DNA of 64,000 nt, from contig JAHHGS010000084.1 of assembly GCA_019359715.1 (NCBI GenBank), positions 1 through 64,000 of the forward strand. The letters run 5' to 3'. The translations under genes were made by a program, and so were the position numbers. Origin of the DNA: Aphanocapsa sp. GSE-SYN-MK-11-07L (GTDB lineage: Bacteria; Cyanobacteriota; Cyanobacteriia; Thermosynechococcales; Thermosynechococcaceae). Positions 11,596-29,485 of this stretch are shown in pieces. The notes under the pieces were generated by a model. The model had not been told where the DNA came from, did no database searches, and saw only the letters and a program-made list of their open reading frames with translations. Within the stretch, counting starts at the first letter, position 1, and the number at the start of each line of letters is the position of its first letter.

Positions 11596-12001
11596 GGGGG
11601 CGTGGCGGAATGGTAGACGCTGCGGACTTAGATAACTGAGCCTTGCCAGAGAAATCTTGCAAGTGAAGGCTCTCAAATTCAGGGAAACCTAACTCTGAAC
11701 TTCAGATACGGCAATCCTGAGCCAAGCCCGGTAGTTTTTTCTGTTTGGTCACAATTGGGCAATTCGCCCAGAACCTGTAGCCGAAAACTTTAAACTCTGG
11801 GAAGGTGCAGAGACTCGACGGGAGCTACCCTAAGGCAATTTTTGCCTGGGTAAAGGGAGAGTCCAATTCTCAAAACTAGATGGGGAGGCAGGAATGGCGA
11901 TCGCCCTCTTGACTCAGACCAGAAGGTAGCTGTGAAAGCAGCAAGAGAATGAAAATCCGTTGACCTTAACAGTCGTGTGGGTTCAAGTCCCACCGCCCCC
12001 A
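11596..12001 (+). tRNA. trnL-UAA: tRNA-Leu(UAA) interrupted by a group I intron
   Basis: Exon 1 is 11596-11629 and exon 2 is 11952-12001. The acceptor stem GGGGGCG pairs with CGCCCCC followed by discriminator A; the joined anticodon loop is CUUAAAA with anticodon UAA. The 322-nt intron (11630-11951) interrupts the anticodon after U34, the classical cyanobacterial/plastid site. It contains the conserved group I elements: CTCAAATTCAGGGAAACCTAA region, GGCAATCCTGAGCCAAGCC (P/Q), GGTGCAGAGACTCGACGGGA (R/S), and ends in G. CCA is not encoded. No homing endonuclease is present. Confidence 0.95.
11630..11951 (+). other. Group I intron in trnL-UAA
   Basis: 322 nt, inserted between anticodon bases U34 and A35. 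Conserved P, Q, R and S core segments are visible and the last base is G, as expected for self-splicing. A variable peripheral extension near 11880-11935 contains a HIP1 site. A 75-residue open frame on the opposite strand across it is coincidental. Confidence 0.92.
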
Positions 12002-22793: not shown

Positions 22794-23309
22794 TTAATTG
22801 TAGCCATTGTGCAGCAGGTGTTCAGCCCGATCAATCTCTTGAGGTGTTCCTTCGACAATCAGCAAAAAACTGCCGCCAGCAATCTGTTGACTGTAAGCTT
22901 TCGCTTGGGCTGAGGTGAGTCCTAGACCAATCAAGGCTCCTGTCACTCCCCCCGCTGCCGTACAAATGCCGCCGCTGAGCAGAACAAACGCGATCGCCGA
23001 AGACAACACCAGTTGCCCCACCCCTGGCAGGGCAATCAGTCCAGCCCCCAGCAGTAGCCCAGTCGCGCCACCGGCCAGATTGCCCATCAGCAAGCCTTTT
23101 TTGAGGCCAGTTGCCGTGCCGGTGATCCTGCCATAGGGAGGTGCAGGCAGGTTGGCGGGGTGATCTTTATGCTCACTCTCACCCAGTAAAAAAACCTGCG
23201 CGATCGGAAAGCCAGACAGGACAAGCTGATCAAGCGCTTGTCCAGCAACGGCACGATTGGAATACAGTCTGATCGCTTGGCGATGCTGGGTCAGGATGGT
23301 ATTGAACAT
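22794..23309 (-). CDS. General stress protein 17M-like glycine-zipper protein
   Basis: 171 residues from ATG 23309. The N-terminal part (AIRLYSNRAVAGQALDQLVLSGFPIAQV) and the C-terminal part (LIVEGTPQEIDRAEHLLHNGY) form the stress-protein-like alpha/beta domain, and the middle has two glycine/alanine-rich hydrophobic hairpins (about 70-130), as in many cyanobacterial membrane-inserting stress proteins. Function unknown. Confidence 0.68.
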   Translation of the reverse strand: MFNTILTQHRQAIRLYSNRAVAGQALDQLVLSGFPIAQVFLLGESEHKDHPANLPAPPYGRITGTATGLKKGLLMGNLAGGATGLLLGAGLIALPGVGQLVLSSAIAFVLLSGGICTAAGGVTGALIGLGLTSAQAKAYSQQIAGGSFLLIVEGTPQEIDRAEHLLHNGYN

Positions 23310-23421
23310 CTCTCGATTTTTAAGAGGTAAAATTTTTTCTGTATCTTTCAATACTATTTTACCTAATTTATCGCCGCAATTATCAGCTTTGGCTTGGCAT
23401 GTGAGAAAGCGATGACAAAAA

Positions 23422-23552: not shown

Positions 23553-23951
23553 TTACTTCTTCAAAGGATCGCTGAGCGTAGCCGGTGTATCAACGGTCAA
23601 AGCGGCTTCGTTTTGTTCACTCGTGCGAATCCGGATCGCTCTGCTGACGGGGATTACAAATAATTTACCATCCCCAATTGTGCCAGTTTTGGCGGTGGCG
23701 ACAATTGTATCAACCACGGCATCGGTCAGATCATCATTGACGACAATTTCAAGCCTGACCTTGGGCACAAAGTCGATCGTGAACGGCTTGCCCTCCATAT
23801 CGAGCAGGCCCAAAAAAGCGAGCGGGCGACCTTTTTGCCGTCCGAACCCTTTCGCGCCGGTCACGGTCATGCCTTGAATCCCCAGTTTGACCAAAGCTTC
23901 TTTGACAGCATCTAATTTATTCGGTTGGATAACAGCAAGAATCAAATTCAT
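23553..23951 (-). CDS. PII-family signalling protein with altered T-loop
   Basis: 132 residues. The PII core is clear: MTVTGAKGFGRQKG, the ATP-binding B-loop TGTIGDGKLFVIPV (about 89-102) and the C-terminal IRIRT. The T-loop (about 41-59) differs from GlnB: it is longer and lacks the RGSEY stretch, so neither the phosphorylatable serine 49 nor tyrosine 51 is present. A 22-residue extension follows the usual C-terminus. GlnB-type PII trimers sense ATP/ADP and 2-oxoglutarate. It lies 103 bp downstream of an APC permease on the same strand, so it may control that transporter rather than PipX or NAGK. Confidence 0.85.
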   Translation of the reverse strand: MNLILAVIQPNKLDAVKEALVKLGIQGMTVTGAKGFGRQKGRPLAFLGLLDMEGKPFTIDFVPKVRLEIVVNDDLTDAVVDTIVATAKTGTIGDGKLFVIPVSRAIRIRTSEQNEAALTVDTPATLSDPLKK

Positions 23952-24054: not shown

Positions 24055-25620
24055 TTATCGAGGTTTAGAGGTGCCGATGCGATCGCGTGAAGGATGGCTC
24101 AGATTGGCCGGTAAAAATAGGGGTTTACCTTTGAGCAAGCTATCGCCAATCAAATAGGCAAATCCGGCCGCGAAGAAGGCGATCGAAATCCCGATCGCTG
24201 TCATCGAATTGGCTTGGGCATTACCTGACCCCGTTAAGCCGTAGTAGAAAATGCCACCGACCATGAGCAGATTCATCACCAAGCCCAAGCTGGGAATCAC
24301 AATTGTTTTGATTGGATTGTGGTCATCGTCTAGAAGATGTCTGAGGGTTGCAATCAGGGCGATCCCACAGGTGATACCGTAGAGCATAAAGGTGCCAATG
24401 TTAGATACCAGGGTAACAATCGTGACATTATCGACGCTTTGAACAGCGTAGGCTCCAATTAAGGCCGACAGTCCTGTCAGAAAGAAAATGCCGATGTAGG
24501 GCGTGTTGTAGCGACCGTGCAAAAACCCAAACACCGAGGGCAGTTCGCGATCGTTGCCCATTGCATAGCTGATTCGGACGCCAGTAGACAGTGAGGACAG
24601 GGCCGTTCCAATCAGTGCCATCACAACAGTGCTGGCGATCGTGATTTGGAGCAGAAAGCCATTCCCGAACAGCAAGGTATCACCCAAAATTTTCGCGATA
24701 TCCCCGATCGGTGCGCCCGACGACAAGGCGGCAGCAAAGCCAGTCACCGTCTTGCCATCAACCGTCACAGCATACTGATCGCCAATGAAAAAATTAGCGG
24801 CAAAATACTCAAAAAAGTAGCAGAGACAAGCCTGAATAAACAGCGACAACACAACTCCGCGCGGAATATCCCGCTGCGGATTGACCGCTTCCCCGGCCAT
24901 GGCGGTGGCTGACTCAAAGCCAACCAGGAGCAGAATTGCGATCGTCGCCTGATAAACCAGCCCCATCAAATCGTGGGGAATCACAACGCTGAGGGCATTG
25001 GCATGTTCGTAATTGACGTTGGGATGCCCCAATCGGTACAGAATCATCAGCAGCCCCAGAAAGACCAGAGAAACAATTTGCACAATATTGATAATGATGT
25101 TGATTAAAGTTGAGCCAGTCACGCCAATCAGAGCAATGCTGCCGACTAAACCTGCGAAAACCAGACAGATTAAGACTTTGCTCAACCAATCTGAAGCAAA
25201 ATTAGGATTAAACAGTTGCCCAATGTAGACGACCAGCGTACCCATAAAGCTAATCATGATGCCGGGATAGGCCCAGTAGTAGAGATGAGCTGCCCAACCG
25301 GTGACAAATTTGGCTACACGGGCCAAGCGGAAATGCTTGTGGGATTGTTTGGCTAAAATAGCTGCCTCGGCGTAGTAGTAGGAACTCCCCGCTCCGGCAT
25401 CTGGATAGGCTTTAGAGAGCGTGGCATAGCAACTCGCGGTCAGCAGGGCAATGCAGGTGGCCAGGGCGATCGCTGCCCACATATTTTTGGCAGAGTCGGG
25501 CGGAGCTTGCAGTTGGTAAGTTGTCCATAGAAAAGCACCCGGCGCTATCAATGCCATGGCATTAATCGTGATACCCACCAACCCAAGCGTGGGCTTCAGT
25601 TCACTACTTGAGTTTGTCAT
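24055..25620 (-). CDS. APC family amino acid permease
   Basis: 521 residues with about 12-14 transmembrane helices. Family features include the N-terminal GLVGITINAMALIAPGAFLW stretch and VGFESATAMAGEAVNPQRDIPRG in the sixth helix region. Substrate is probably a neutral or acidic amino acid (glutamate/GABA-type branch), but this cannot be settled by eye. First gene of an operon with the PII-like gene; divergent from the NtcA-controlled ppk2-glnN genes, with 537 bp between. Confidence 0.87.
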   Translation of the reverse strand: MTNSSSELKPTLGLVGITINAMALIAPGAFLWTTYQLQAPPDSAKNMWAAIALATCIALLTASCYATLSKAYPDAGAGSSYYYAEAAILAKQSHKHFRLARVAKFVTGWAAHLYYWAYPGIMISFMGTLVVYIGQLFNPNFASDWLSKVLICLVFAGLVGSIALIGVTGSTLINIIINIVQIVSLVFLGLLMILYRLGHPNVNYEHANALSVVIPHDLMGLVYQATIAILLLVGFESATAMAGEAVNPQRDIPRGVVLSLFIQACLCYFFEYFAANFFIGDQYAVTVDGKTVTGFAAALSSGAPIGDIAKILGDTLLFGNGFLLQITIASTVVMALIGTALSSLSTGVRISYAMGNDRELPSVFGFLHGRYNTPYIGIFFLTGLSALIGAYAVQSVDNVTIVTLVSNIGTFMLYGITCGIALIATLRHLLDDDHNPIKTIVIPSLGLVMNLLMVGGIFYYGLTGSGNAQANSMTAIGISIAFFAAGFAYLIGDSLLKGKPLFLPANLSHPSRDRIGTSKPR

Positions 25621-26157
25621 AGCAAATTGTTACATCTCTCTAGAGTACGTACCATATCTTTGAAGGTGAGCCGCCATCAGTCTGTATTGCACAACACAAA
25701 CTGCTGCTTAATGGCTGTTTAGTGTTTGATCTGCCTGGACTAGAACCCTATCTGTGTGAAGCTTTGGCAATAAGACTAGATATTTTCGCCCATTTTATAG
25801 ACGATGCATTACAATGCGAAATTACTCTACTCTGTCTGTCAGGCTTGAAAAACTGTCCTTGGGTTTTTGCTGCGCTTTGTAGTTTTCGATACAAATGTCT
25901 TCAGTCCTTCCTCCTACCATAGGTCGAAATGCAGAACCTTGCGAATGGCTAAAGCCCAATCGAAAAGAATTTTACAGATTTCACTGTTACATCTGCAAGG
26001 GAGAGGTTTAGGCTGGTGCAAATCGCAATTTAGATTGCTGATTGTCTTGCACTAAGCAGTTATAACGGTCAGTCAGTCTGGGTTGGCTTAAGTTAATGCA
26101 TTTTCCCTGGTTTTTGTTAGTTTGTCGCTGCTTGCCGCTAAGGCACTGGAGAAAACT
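25621..26157. other. 537-bp divergent regulatory region between the permease and ppk2
   Basis: No convincing gene; short open frames do not resemble proteins. It holds the NtcA promoter at 25879-25920, and, from there, a 5' leader of about 230 nt in front of ppk2. The permease promoter should lie in 25621-25800. Confidence 0.6.
25879..25920 (+). promoter_or_regulatory. NtcA-activated promoter for ppk2-glnN
   Basis: The sequence at 25879-25892 is GTA-N8-TAC (GTAGTTTTCGATAC), extended to TGTA...TACA on its flanks. Exactly 22 bases downstream is TACCAT at 25915-25920, matching the -10 consensus TAN3T. This is the class II layout of cyanobacterial nitrogen-stress promoters (NtcA site centred near -41). 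The only plus-strand genes downstream are ppk2 and glnN. Expected start of transcription is about 25927. Confidence 0.82.
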
Positions 26158-27111
26158 ATGGAGTCCGACATTATGAATGGGGACTTTTCTGCAAGTGAGA
26201 CCGCAGAGTCCCCCACCTCAACGACTAAATCTGGCAAGAAAAAGAATAAGGACAAGAAAAAAAGGAAAAAAGCCAAGTTTGATGATGCTCCCCAGTCAAT
26301 GACCTACTTGCCTACGTCTGAACGGGAAAGTAAGTCTAAGCTCTCGACGAAAGAGTATGAAAAAGAGTTGGCCCGGATGCAGGTTGAGCTAGTCAAATTG
26401 CAGTATTGGGCCAAACATACGGGCACTCGGATTGTGATTTTGTTTGAAGGGCGCGATGCCGCAGGCAAAGGCGGCACGATTAAGCGGATTACGGAACCGC
26501 TGAATCCGCGCGGCTGTCGGGTTGTGGCGTTGGGAACCCCCAGCGATCGCGAAAAAACCGAATGGTACTTCCAGCGCTATTCGCCCCATTTACCAGCAGC
26601 GGGTGAAATTGTCTGCTTTGATCGGAGTTGGTATAACCGAGCTGGCGTCGAGCGTGTGATGGGCTTTTGCACCGACGATCAGTATCGGGAATTTATGCAA
26701 ACTTGCCCGGAATTTGAGCGAATGCTAGTCCGGTCGGGGATTATTTTACTCAAGTATTGGTTCTCTGTCAGCGATGAAGAGCAGGAGCGCCGCTTCCAAT
26801 CGCGCACCATTGATCCGGCGCGGCGCTGGAAACTGAGTCCAATGGATTTGGAATCGCGCGATCGCTGGGTGGAATATTCCCAGGCCAAAGATGAGATGTT
26901 TGCCCATACCAACATCCCAGAAGCCCCCTGGTTCACCGTCGAAGCCGACGATAAAAAGCGGGCCCGTCTTAACTGCATCAACCACTTCCTGACCAAAATC
27001 CCCTACGTTGATATGACCCCAGAACCACTAGAACTCCCGCCCCGCCGGTCTGCCCATGACTACGTGCGACCGCCGCGCAACGAGCAGTTCTTTGTCCCGC
27101 AAGTGTATTGA
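26158..27111 (+). CDS. ppk2: Polyphosphate kinase 2 family protein
   Basis: 317 residues from ATG 26158 with GGAG seven bases upstream (a TTG at 26122 is not needed). Walker A FEGRDAAGKGG (about 96-106), the lid region and the Walker B segment FDRSWYNRAGVERVMGF identify PPK2, which moves phosphate between polyphosphate and nucleoside diphosphates. The N-terminus has a run of lysines (about residues 25-40, interrupted by few other residues) not typical of the core family. It precedes glnN by 87 bp and lies behind an NtcA site, so it may supply ATP/GTP for glutamine synthesis during nitrogen stress. Confidence 0.92.
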   Translation: MESDIMNGDFSASETAESPTSTTKSGKKKNKDKKKRKKAKFDDAPQSMTYLPTSERESKSKLSTKEYEKELARMQVELVKLQYWAKHTGTRIVILFEGRDAAGKGGTIKRITEPLNPRGCRVVALGTPSDREKTEWYFQRYSPHLPAAGEIVCFDRSWYNRAGVERVMGFCTDDQYREFMQTCPEFERMLVRSGIILLKYWFSVSDEEQERRFQSRTIDPARRWKLSPMDLESRDRWVEYSQAKDEMFAHTNIPEAPWFTVEADDKKRARLNCINHFLTKIPYVDMTPEPLELPPRRSAHDYVRPPRNEQFFVPQVY

Positions 27112-27198: not shown

Positions 27199-29373
27199 AT
27201 GAGTGGTAATGAACTCCGCTTCCAGGCCATTTGCCAAGTCACCGATCGCGAAAAGCTCCCCCCCAAGACGCCCAGCCGCTTAGAAGAACTTTGGGCCACC
27301 GATGTGTTTACGCTGGCCAAGATGCAGGCCTGTCTGCCCAAGGATGTGTTTAAGTCGATTAAAAGCACGGTGCAAACCGGTGGCAAGCTAGATGTCTCCG
27401 TGGCCGGAATTGTGGCTGCGGCGATGAAAGACTGGGCAATTTCTAAGGGTGCCCTCTACTACGCCCACGTCTTTTATCCGATGACCAACTTTACGGCTGA
27501 GAAGCACGATGGATTTATCTCGGTTCAAGGCGATGGCTCAGTAATCACAGAATTCACTGGCAAGGTGCTGGTGCAGGGTGAACCGGATGGCTCGTCTTTT
27601 CCAAATGGCGGCATTCGCTCCACGTTTGAAGCCCGTGGCTACACGGCTTGGGATGTGACCAGCCCGGCCTACGTGATGGAAACCGATAACGGTGTCACCC
27701 TATGTATTCCAACTGTCTTCATTTCTTGGACTGGTGAAGCCCTCGACAAGAAAACGCCGCTGCTCCGCTCCAACGCGGCCATGAGCAAAGCAGCCACCCG
27801 ACTGCTGAAGCTGTTGGGGCATTCTGAAGTTGCCACCGTCAACTCAAGCTGCGGAGCAGAGCAGGAATACTTCTTGGTTGATGCCCATTTTGCCCACAGC
27901 CGCCCCGATATCCTGCTGACTGGCAGAACCCTGTTTGGGCGACCAGCGGCCAAAGGACAACAGTTTGATGATCACTACTTTGGGGCGATTCCAGAGCGGG
28001 TGCAGGTCTTCATGCAAGATGTGGAGGAGAAAATGTATCGGTTGGGGATTCCAGCCAAAACTCGCCACAACGAAGTCGCCCCCGGTCAATTTGAGCTGGC
28101 CCCATTCTTTGAGGCAGCTAACGTGGCCAGCGACCACCAGCAAATGACGATGACCATCCTCAAGAACACGGCCAAGAAGCACGGCTTTATCTGCCTGCTG
28201 CACGAAAAGCCGTTCGCAGGCATCAATGGCTCTGGCAAACACGTCAACTGGTCAGTTGGCAATGCTACTCAAGGCAACTTGCTGGATCCCGGCGATAGTC
28301 CCCATGCCAACCTGCAATTTCTGCTGTTCTGCGGAGCGGTAATTCGCGGCGTCCACAAGTATGGGCCGCTGCTGCGAGCCGTGGTAGCAACCGCCAGCAA
28401 CGATCATCGCCTGGGAGCAAACGAAGCGCCTCCAGCAATCATTTCGGTCTACTTGGGCACCCAGCTTGAAGATGTGTTTGAGCAAATTAGGCAGGGTGAT
28501 GTTAAAAGCTCTGCCCACGCCGGGGTAATGAATTTAGGCGTACCCACTCTGCCGGAATTTCCGAAAGATCCGGGCGATCGCAACCGCACCTCCCCCTTTG
28601 CCTTCACGGGCAATCGGTTTGAATTCCGGGCCGTCGGGTCGGGGCAATCGGTGTCGGGGCCATTGGTGGCCATGAACACGATCTTGACCGATTCCCTCAC
28701 CTGGGTGGCAGACCAGTTGGAAGCTGAGTTGGCCAAAGGCAAAGCCCTAGATGTGGCGGCGTTTGCGATCCTAAAATCGGTGATGGATGATCATGGGGCC
28801 GTTGTGTTTGGCGGCAATGGTTACTCGGAAGCATGGCACAAAATGGCTGTTGAAGAACGCGGCTTACTCAACCTACCGACGACCGCCGATGCGCTGCCGA
28901 TCCTGAAGGAAAAGTACATTGAGGAGCTGTTTGAAAAAACAGGCGTGCTGTCTGCGGCTGAGCTAGAAAGCCGGTTTGACGTTTACGCCGAGCAGTACAC
29001 GCAGGTAATTGAGATGGAAGCCAAGCTGGTGATTAGTTTGGCTAAAACGGTGATTTATCCGGCTGCCTTCCGCTATTTATCGGAGCTGGCCGGCAGCATT
29101 ACCAGTCTGAAGCAAATTGGGATCGCCTTTGAATTAGAAAGCGCCGAAACGGTGGCTTCAGTCACAAAGCTAATGATGGATAGCGTTAGCAAGTTAAGCG
29201 ATGCCAGCAGCAAGCATGAGTTCGCCACGATCGAAGAACACATGCAGTACTGTGCCAAAACCCTGCGCCCGCTGATGGATCAGGTTCGCACCTACGCGGA
29301 TGCTTTAGAGGGGGATGTTGCCGACGACCTTTGGCCATTACCCAAATACCAGGAGATGCTGTTTATCAAATAG
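27199..29373 (+). CDS. glnN: Glutamine synthetase type III
   Basis: 724 residues, the length of the GSIII family (about 720, much longer than GlnA). Family segments include the N-terminal GSIII region, [23 protein letters not shown], and [18 protein letters not shown]. It combines glutamate and ammonium with ATP to give glutamine. In cyanobacteria GlnN is induced by nitrogen starvation through NtcA, consistent with the promoter upstream of ppk2. Start ATG has AAGGA upstream. It ends before two hairpins. Confidence 0.95.
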
Positions 29374-29418: not shown

Positions 29419-29424
29419 GAATAA

Positions 29425-29469
29425 GATTATTTTTGAAAGCTTCGCTCTGAGAAGCTTTCAAAAATAATC
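29425..29469. terminator. Hairpin 2, bidirectional terminator
   Basis: Perfect 18-bp stem (arms 29425-29442 and 29452-29469, starting GATTATTTTTGAAAGCTT), loop 9 bases. T-rich on both strands, lying between convergent genes, as expected of a bidirectional terminator. Confidence 0.7.
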
Positions 29470-29485
29470 TGTTTTGATATTGAGG

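Follow-up and report, generated by a model that had tools for sequence, protein, structure and literature searches.

The genes ppk2 and glnN, which encode a polyphosphate kinase and a type III glutamine synthetase (GSIII), are preceded in the window (the whole 64-kb stretch of DNA analyzed here) by a predicted NtcA class II promoter that is kept ahead of the same gene pair in related genomes, and we put the probability that this promoter is real at about 0.88. Judged from sequence, ppk2-glnN joins the predicted NtcA regulon as a conserved new member and is no new kind of system, the recurrent pairing adding a polyphosphate kinase to that regulon. In the open-access literature searched, we found no paper describing a ppk2-glnN operon and none that treats the two genes and NtcA together; they are mentioned jointly only in connection with picocyanobacterial gene content.

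Anatomy of the promoter

The first-pass annotation of this DNA had described an exact GTA-N8-TAC site, extended to TGTA...TACA and followed after 22 bases by TACCAT, and direct reading shows this to be correct to the base (Table 1). Within the palindrome, TGTAGTTTTCGATACA, the core matches GTAN8TAC exactly at 25879-25892 (GTA at 25879-25881, N8, then TAC at 25890-25892), flanked by a T at 25878 and an A at 25893, and a 22-base spacer (25893-25914) separates the TAC half-site from the TACCAT box. The canonical geometry of NtcA-activated promoters is a GTAN8TAC site centered at -41.5 with a TAN3T -10 element (PMC3898017); a transcription start near 25927, as predicted from this geometry, would place the center of the palindrome (25885.5) at -41.5. 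The GTAN8TAC site and its 22-nucleotide distance to a TAN3T -10 element are common to the ppk2-glnN promoter, where the -41.5 center is a prediction, and to the canonical class II promoters of glnA, nirA, urtA and ntcB (PMC3898017). Unlike in those promoters, the first gene here is ppk2, and the start and the binding are predicted.

Table 1. Features of the ppk2-glnN region and the divergent unit, in window coordinates (L, loci; G, genomes)
Feature	Position	Strand	Basis
PII-family paralogue beside permease	23553..23951	-	PF00543; alignment to E. coli PII
APC-family amino-acid permease gene, divergent	24055..25620	-	PF13520, PF00324; adjoins ppk2-glnN also in L003, L016/G017, G115
Second NtcA-like site, permease side, GTGTTGTGCAATAC, one mismatch	25684..25697	-	Exact GTAN8TAC at same place in L003, L016, L233
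Predicted NtcA-binding palindrome, TGTA-N8-TACA	25878..25893	+	Sequence; kept before ppk2-glnN in 15/15 loci tested
-10 element TACCAT (TAN3T), 22 nt past palindrome	25915..25920	+	Sequence; TAN3T invariant at 22-23 nt in 18-row alignment
Predicted leader, about 231 nt	25927..26157	+	Start inferred from -41.5 geometry; length and sequence vary among relatives
ppk2, polyphosphate kinase 2, P. aeruginosa PPK2 type	26158..27111	+	PF03976, E 9.5e-107; TIGR03707, 386.4 bits (cut-off 301.8); nearest structures 5ll0, 6dzg
glnN, type III glutamine synthetase (GSIII)	27199..29373	+	PF12437 GSIII_N, E 3.6e-72; full-length match to 3o6x
Terminator-like hairpin, 20-pair stem, closing ppk2-glnN unit	29424..29470	+	Sequence

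The bare palindrome is by itself no proof of function, because the window contains four copies of GTAN8TAC against 3.06 expected, which is no enrichment, and we regard conservation as decisive. The palindrome extended to TACA and combined with a -10 element at the right spacing has eight matches in the 5.1-Mb genome, against three for a reversed-pattern control.

Conservation among relatives

A scan for PPK2 yielded 80 loci, 15 of which have glnN directly downstream (L002-L008, L010, L011, L013, L015-L017, L026 and L072). With L011 left out, as it has too little upstream DNA, the tested set consisted of the window and 14 relatives. Under a permissive criterion that allows one mismatch, the class II layout is present at all 15 of these ppk2-glnN loci, seven times exactly (shuffle expectations 1.8 and 0.03), and at 7 of the 42 loci with ppk2 alone, three times exactly (shuffle expectations 2.1 and 0.03). 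The difference between pair loci and solo ppk2 loci has a Fisher p of 8e-9, a value that ignores the shared ancestry of the 15 loci. Nearly all pair loci carry the site in one extended form ending in ATACAA, followed by TAN3T as TA[CTA][CT]AT. In an 18-row promoter alignment, from which L026 and L096 (both degenerate) and L015 (a near-duplicate) were left out, there is no variation at G1, in the TAC half-site and the two A bases after it, or at the fixed positions of the -10 element, and most columns of the flanks hold little information.

NtcA itself is encoded in the same genome (G000:C96, 392 bits), and its recognition helix is identical to that of Anabaena NtcA (3la2). In the genome survey described below, 4 of the 16 ppk2-glnN neighbors are without a good class II site: it is degenerate in G024 and G220, a palindrome without a spaced TAN3T in G048, and missing in G195. 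Therefore, NtcA control of ppk2-glnN is not universal. The earlier claim of an NtcA class II promoter for ppk2-glnN gains strong support from conservation, promoter anatomy and the NtcA gene in the genome; the tie to phosphate storage that came with it is not established.

The divergent permease-PII unit

Upstream of ppk2, on the opposite strand, lie an amino-acid permease gene and a PII-family paralogue, whose T-loop, as aligned to E. coli PII, is lengthened by six residues and is without the usual tyrosine. The two co-occur in exactly the same seven genomes (7/7) among the 242 surveyed, and the unit stands back to back with ppk2-glnN in four loci (the window, L003, L016 and G115). At -76 to -78 from the permease start is a second NtcA-like site, an exact GTAN8TAC in three relatives and with one mismatch in the window. 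The permease-PII unit is possibly under NtcA control as well, less certainly than ppk2-glnN because the distance from this site to a -10 element is non-canonical, except perhaps in G115.

Since the conserved palindrome is situated in the intergenic region that both units share, with 259 bp between it and the permease start, it might in principle serve the divergent operon and not ppk2-glnN. This is very improbable, as the palindrome persists at loci with no permease homologue detected upstream (for example, L004-L008 and L010), its -10 element is on the ppk2 side, and the permease has a conserved NtcA-like site of its own. The idea that the palindrome is a chance match with no function agrees with the lack of GTAN8TAC enrichment within the window, but a full class II layout kept in 15 of 15 loci makes coincidence scarcely credible.

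Two side observations concern these gene families. Five PII-family genes are present in the 5.1-Mb genome (G000, contigs C35, C84, C146, C130 and C114), and in Phormidesmis priestleyi (L002, 4108-5523) the permease gene seems broken, with homology in three pieces.

The ppk2 and glnN genes

The ppk2 product has a single PPK2 domain and scores above the TIGR03707 cut-off, as do the PPK2 enzymes of Pseudomonas aeruginosa and Francisella tularensis (5ll0) and the polyphosphate:ADP phosphotransferase 6dzg, the last two being its nearest matches in the PDB. Unlike these, the PPK2 of the window has a predicted nitrogen control, a linkage to glutamine synthetase and an N-terminal lysine-rich extension. 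PPK2 of the P. aeruginosa type produces GTP from polyphosphate. Aligned start codons of relatives back the ATG at 26158 as the ppk2 start, an in-frame TTG at 26122 being less likely. GlnN, at 724 amino acids, contains PF12437, PF00120 and PF18318, and its match to 3o6x spans residues 5-724; it has the N-terminal, catalytic and C-terminal domains and the length over 700 amino acids that characterize GSIII. The same genome also holds PPK1 and a type I glutamine synthetase.

Joint transcription of the two genes, ending at the downstream hairpin, is likely because they lie on the same strand with a gap of 87 nucleotides, no terminator-like site was found in that gap, a 20-pair terminator follows glnN, and glnN retains the promoter when it stands alone.

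History of the pair and ownership of the promoter

To get a wider view of this arrangement, we surveyed 242 genomes of the class, 83 of which have both ppk2 and glnN. The genes are neighbors in the order ppk2-glnN in 16 of the 83 and in the order glnN-ppk2 in three more, where chance would give about 0.005 adjacent pairs; as related genomes share the arrangement, these counts cannot be taken as independent. In G055, G132, G174 and G187, ppk2 and glnN face each other in convergent orientation across a few kilobases, the distance being about 1.5-2.5 kb at loci L104, L105 and L106 (genomes G132, G055 and G187). In a midpoint-rooted GlnN tree, a single clade of 30 rows contains 22 of the 23 ppk2-glnN rows, with eight solo rows scattered within it, which suggests that the pairing is old and has broken up repeatedly. 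The PPK2 tree is more poorly resolved.

Where close relatives have glnN alone, the same promoter is found 505-637 nucleotides before the gene (L107, L108 and L113). These leaders are non-coding, and a search for another gene or a ppk2 remnant inside the 500-640 nucleotides revealed none evident. By contrast, ppk2 copies located apart from glnN are not preceded by this promoter (for example, in G015, G214, G080, G138 and G235), in keeping with the low count at solo ppk2 loci, where an NtcA site is mostly absent. Because solo glnN keeps the promoter and solo ppk2 copies are without the site, the control element very probably is glnN's own NtcA promoter, with ppk2 carried on the same transcript. 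Weak one-mismatch sites upstream of glnN fall within the ppk2 coding sequence and were disregarded. In Synechococcus elongatus PCC 7942, glnN is reported to be induced in nitrogen starvation through NtcA (PMC4973221); it, too, encodes a type III enzyme with the NtcA activation predicted for the window glnN, which differs in being second in its unit, behind ppk2.

Possible role of the pairing

By analogy with known NtcA promoters, 2-oxoglutarate-bound NtcA would, under nitrogen limitation, occupy the palindrome at -41.5 and bring RNA polymerase to the TACCAT box, and ppk2 and glnN would be induced as one mRNA ending at the hairpin. In cells that are energy-poor, nitrogen-starved or reawakening, PPK2 would then use polyphosphate to regenerate ATP or GTP, and GSIII would consume ATP in fixing the scarce ammonia. 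Polyphosphate-driven ATP/GTP regeneration beside an ATP-consuming GSIII is the purpose we would ascribe to the pairing, at slightly less than even odds.

PPK2 enzymes are reversible, and this reversibility favors another reading in which the promoter is real and driven by NtcA, but PPK2 stores, converting surplus phosphate and NTP into polyphosphate during nitrogen starvation. We consider storage somewhat unlikely, given that the TIGR03707 match is to the P. aeruginosa type, for which a nucleoside diphosphate kinase activity 75 times that of elongation was reported (Ishige 2002, as cited in PMC7564538), and that the genome has PPK1. A role in spending polyphosphate is favored on the same two grounds, the far greater activity of P. 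aeruginosa PPK2 as a nucleoside diphosphate kinase and the separate PPK1, and spending would fit the PPK2 family at least as well as storage. Where the first-pass annotation saw phosphate storage tied to nitrogen starvation, the nitrogen side is upheld by the predicted NtcA control, and on the storage side the gene content suits spending at least equally.

A different objection is that ppk2 may be a passenger, lodged in a long glnN leader without any starvation-specific role, so that the promoter would matter only for glnN. It draws on the fact that the promoter goes with glnN when the genes are apart, on the non-coding leaders of equal length before solo glnN, and on the repeated break-up of the pair. 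However, the genes are also neighbors in reversed order (L030, L102 and L103), adjacent in G048, which lies outside the main clade of the GlnN tree, and convergent within a few kilobases in the four genomes named above, and a mere passenger therefore appears unlikely to us. Returning to the spending of polyphosphate, we tentatively propose, with the odds leaning against so full a picture, a nitrogen-starvation energy module in which NtcA would activate both GSIII and a regenerator of ATP/GTP driven by polyphosphate, stored polyphosphate would pay for ammonia capture, and, in at least four genomes, the module would stand back to back with a possibly NtcA-controlled permease/PII-paralogue unit. 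The pairing makes it possible to test concretely if polyphosphate is spent by cyanobacteria to drive glutamine synthetase as nitrogen becomes exhausted or is resupplied.

The leader and other features

The leader of the window was also considered as a structured RNA or riboswitch, a candidate rejected because it has no Rfam match and the alignment of relatives' leaders shows little conservation apart from its first few bases and the brief motif TGTTACATC. The window leader also contains short upstream ORFs, which were set aside as not conserved, the alignment being judged by eye. The leader motif TGTTACATCTG at 25985-25995 recurs in the leaders of several relatives, and a similar sequence, TGTTACATCTCTC, sits just before the permease start codon.

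Elsewhere in the genome (L174, G000:C145:21436-21477), one of the seven other matches to the same class II pattern falls between urtA-like and urtB-like ABC transporter genes, named from their translations only, and this site is a plausible further NtcA target. Within the window, an exact GTAN8TAC, GTATCTTTCAATAC, at 23341-23354 overlaps the start of an unnamed 185-amino-acid ORF (22794-23351), and a group I intron is found at 11620-11882 (Rfam, 66.6 bits).
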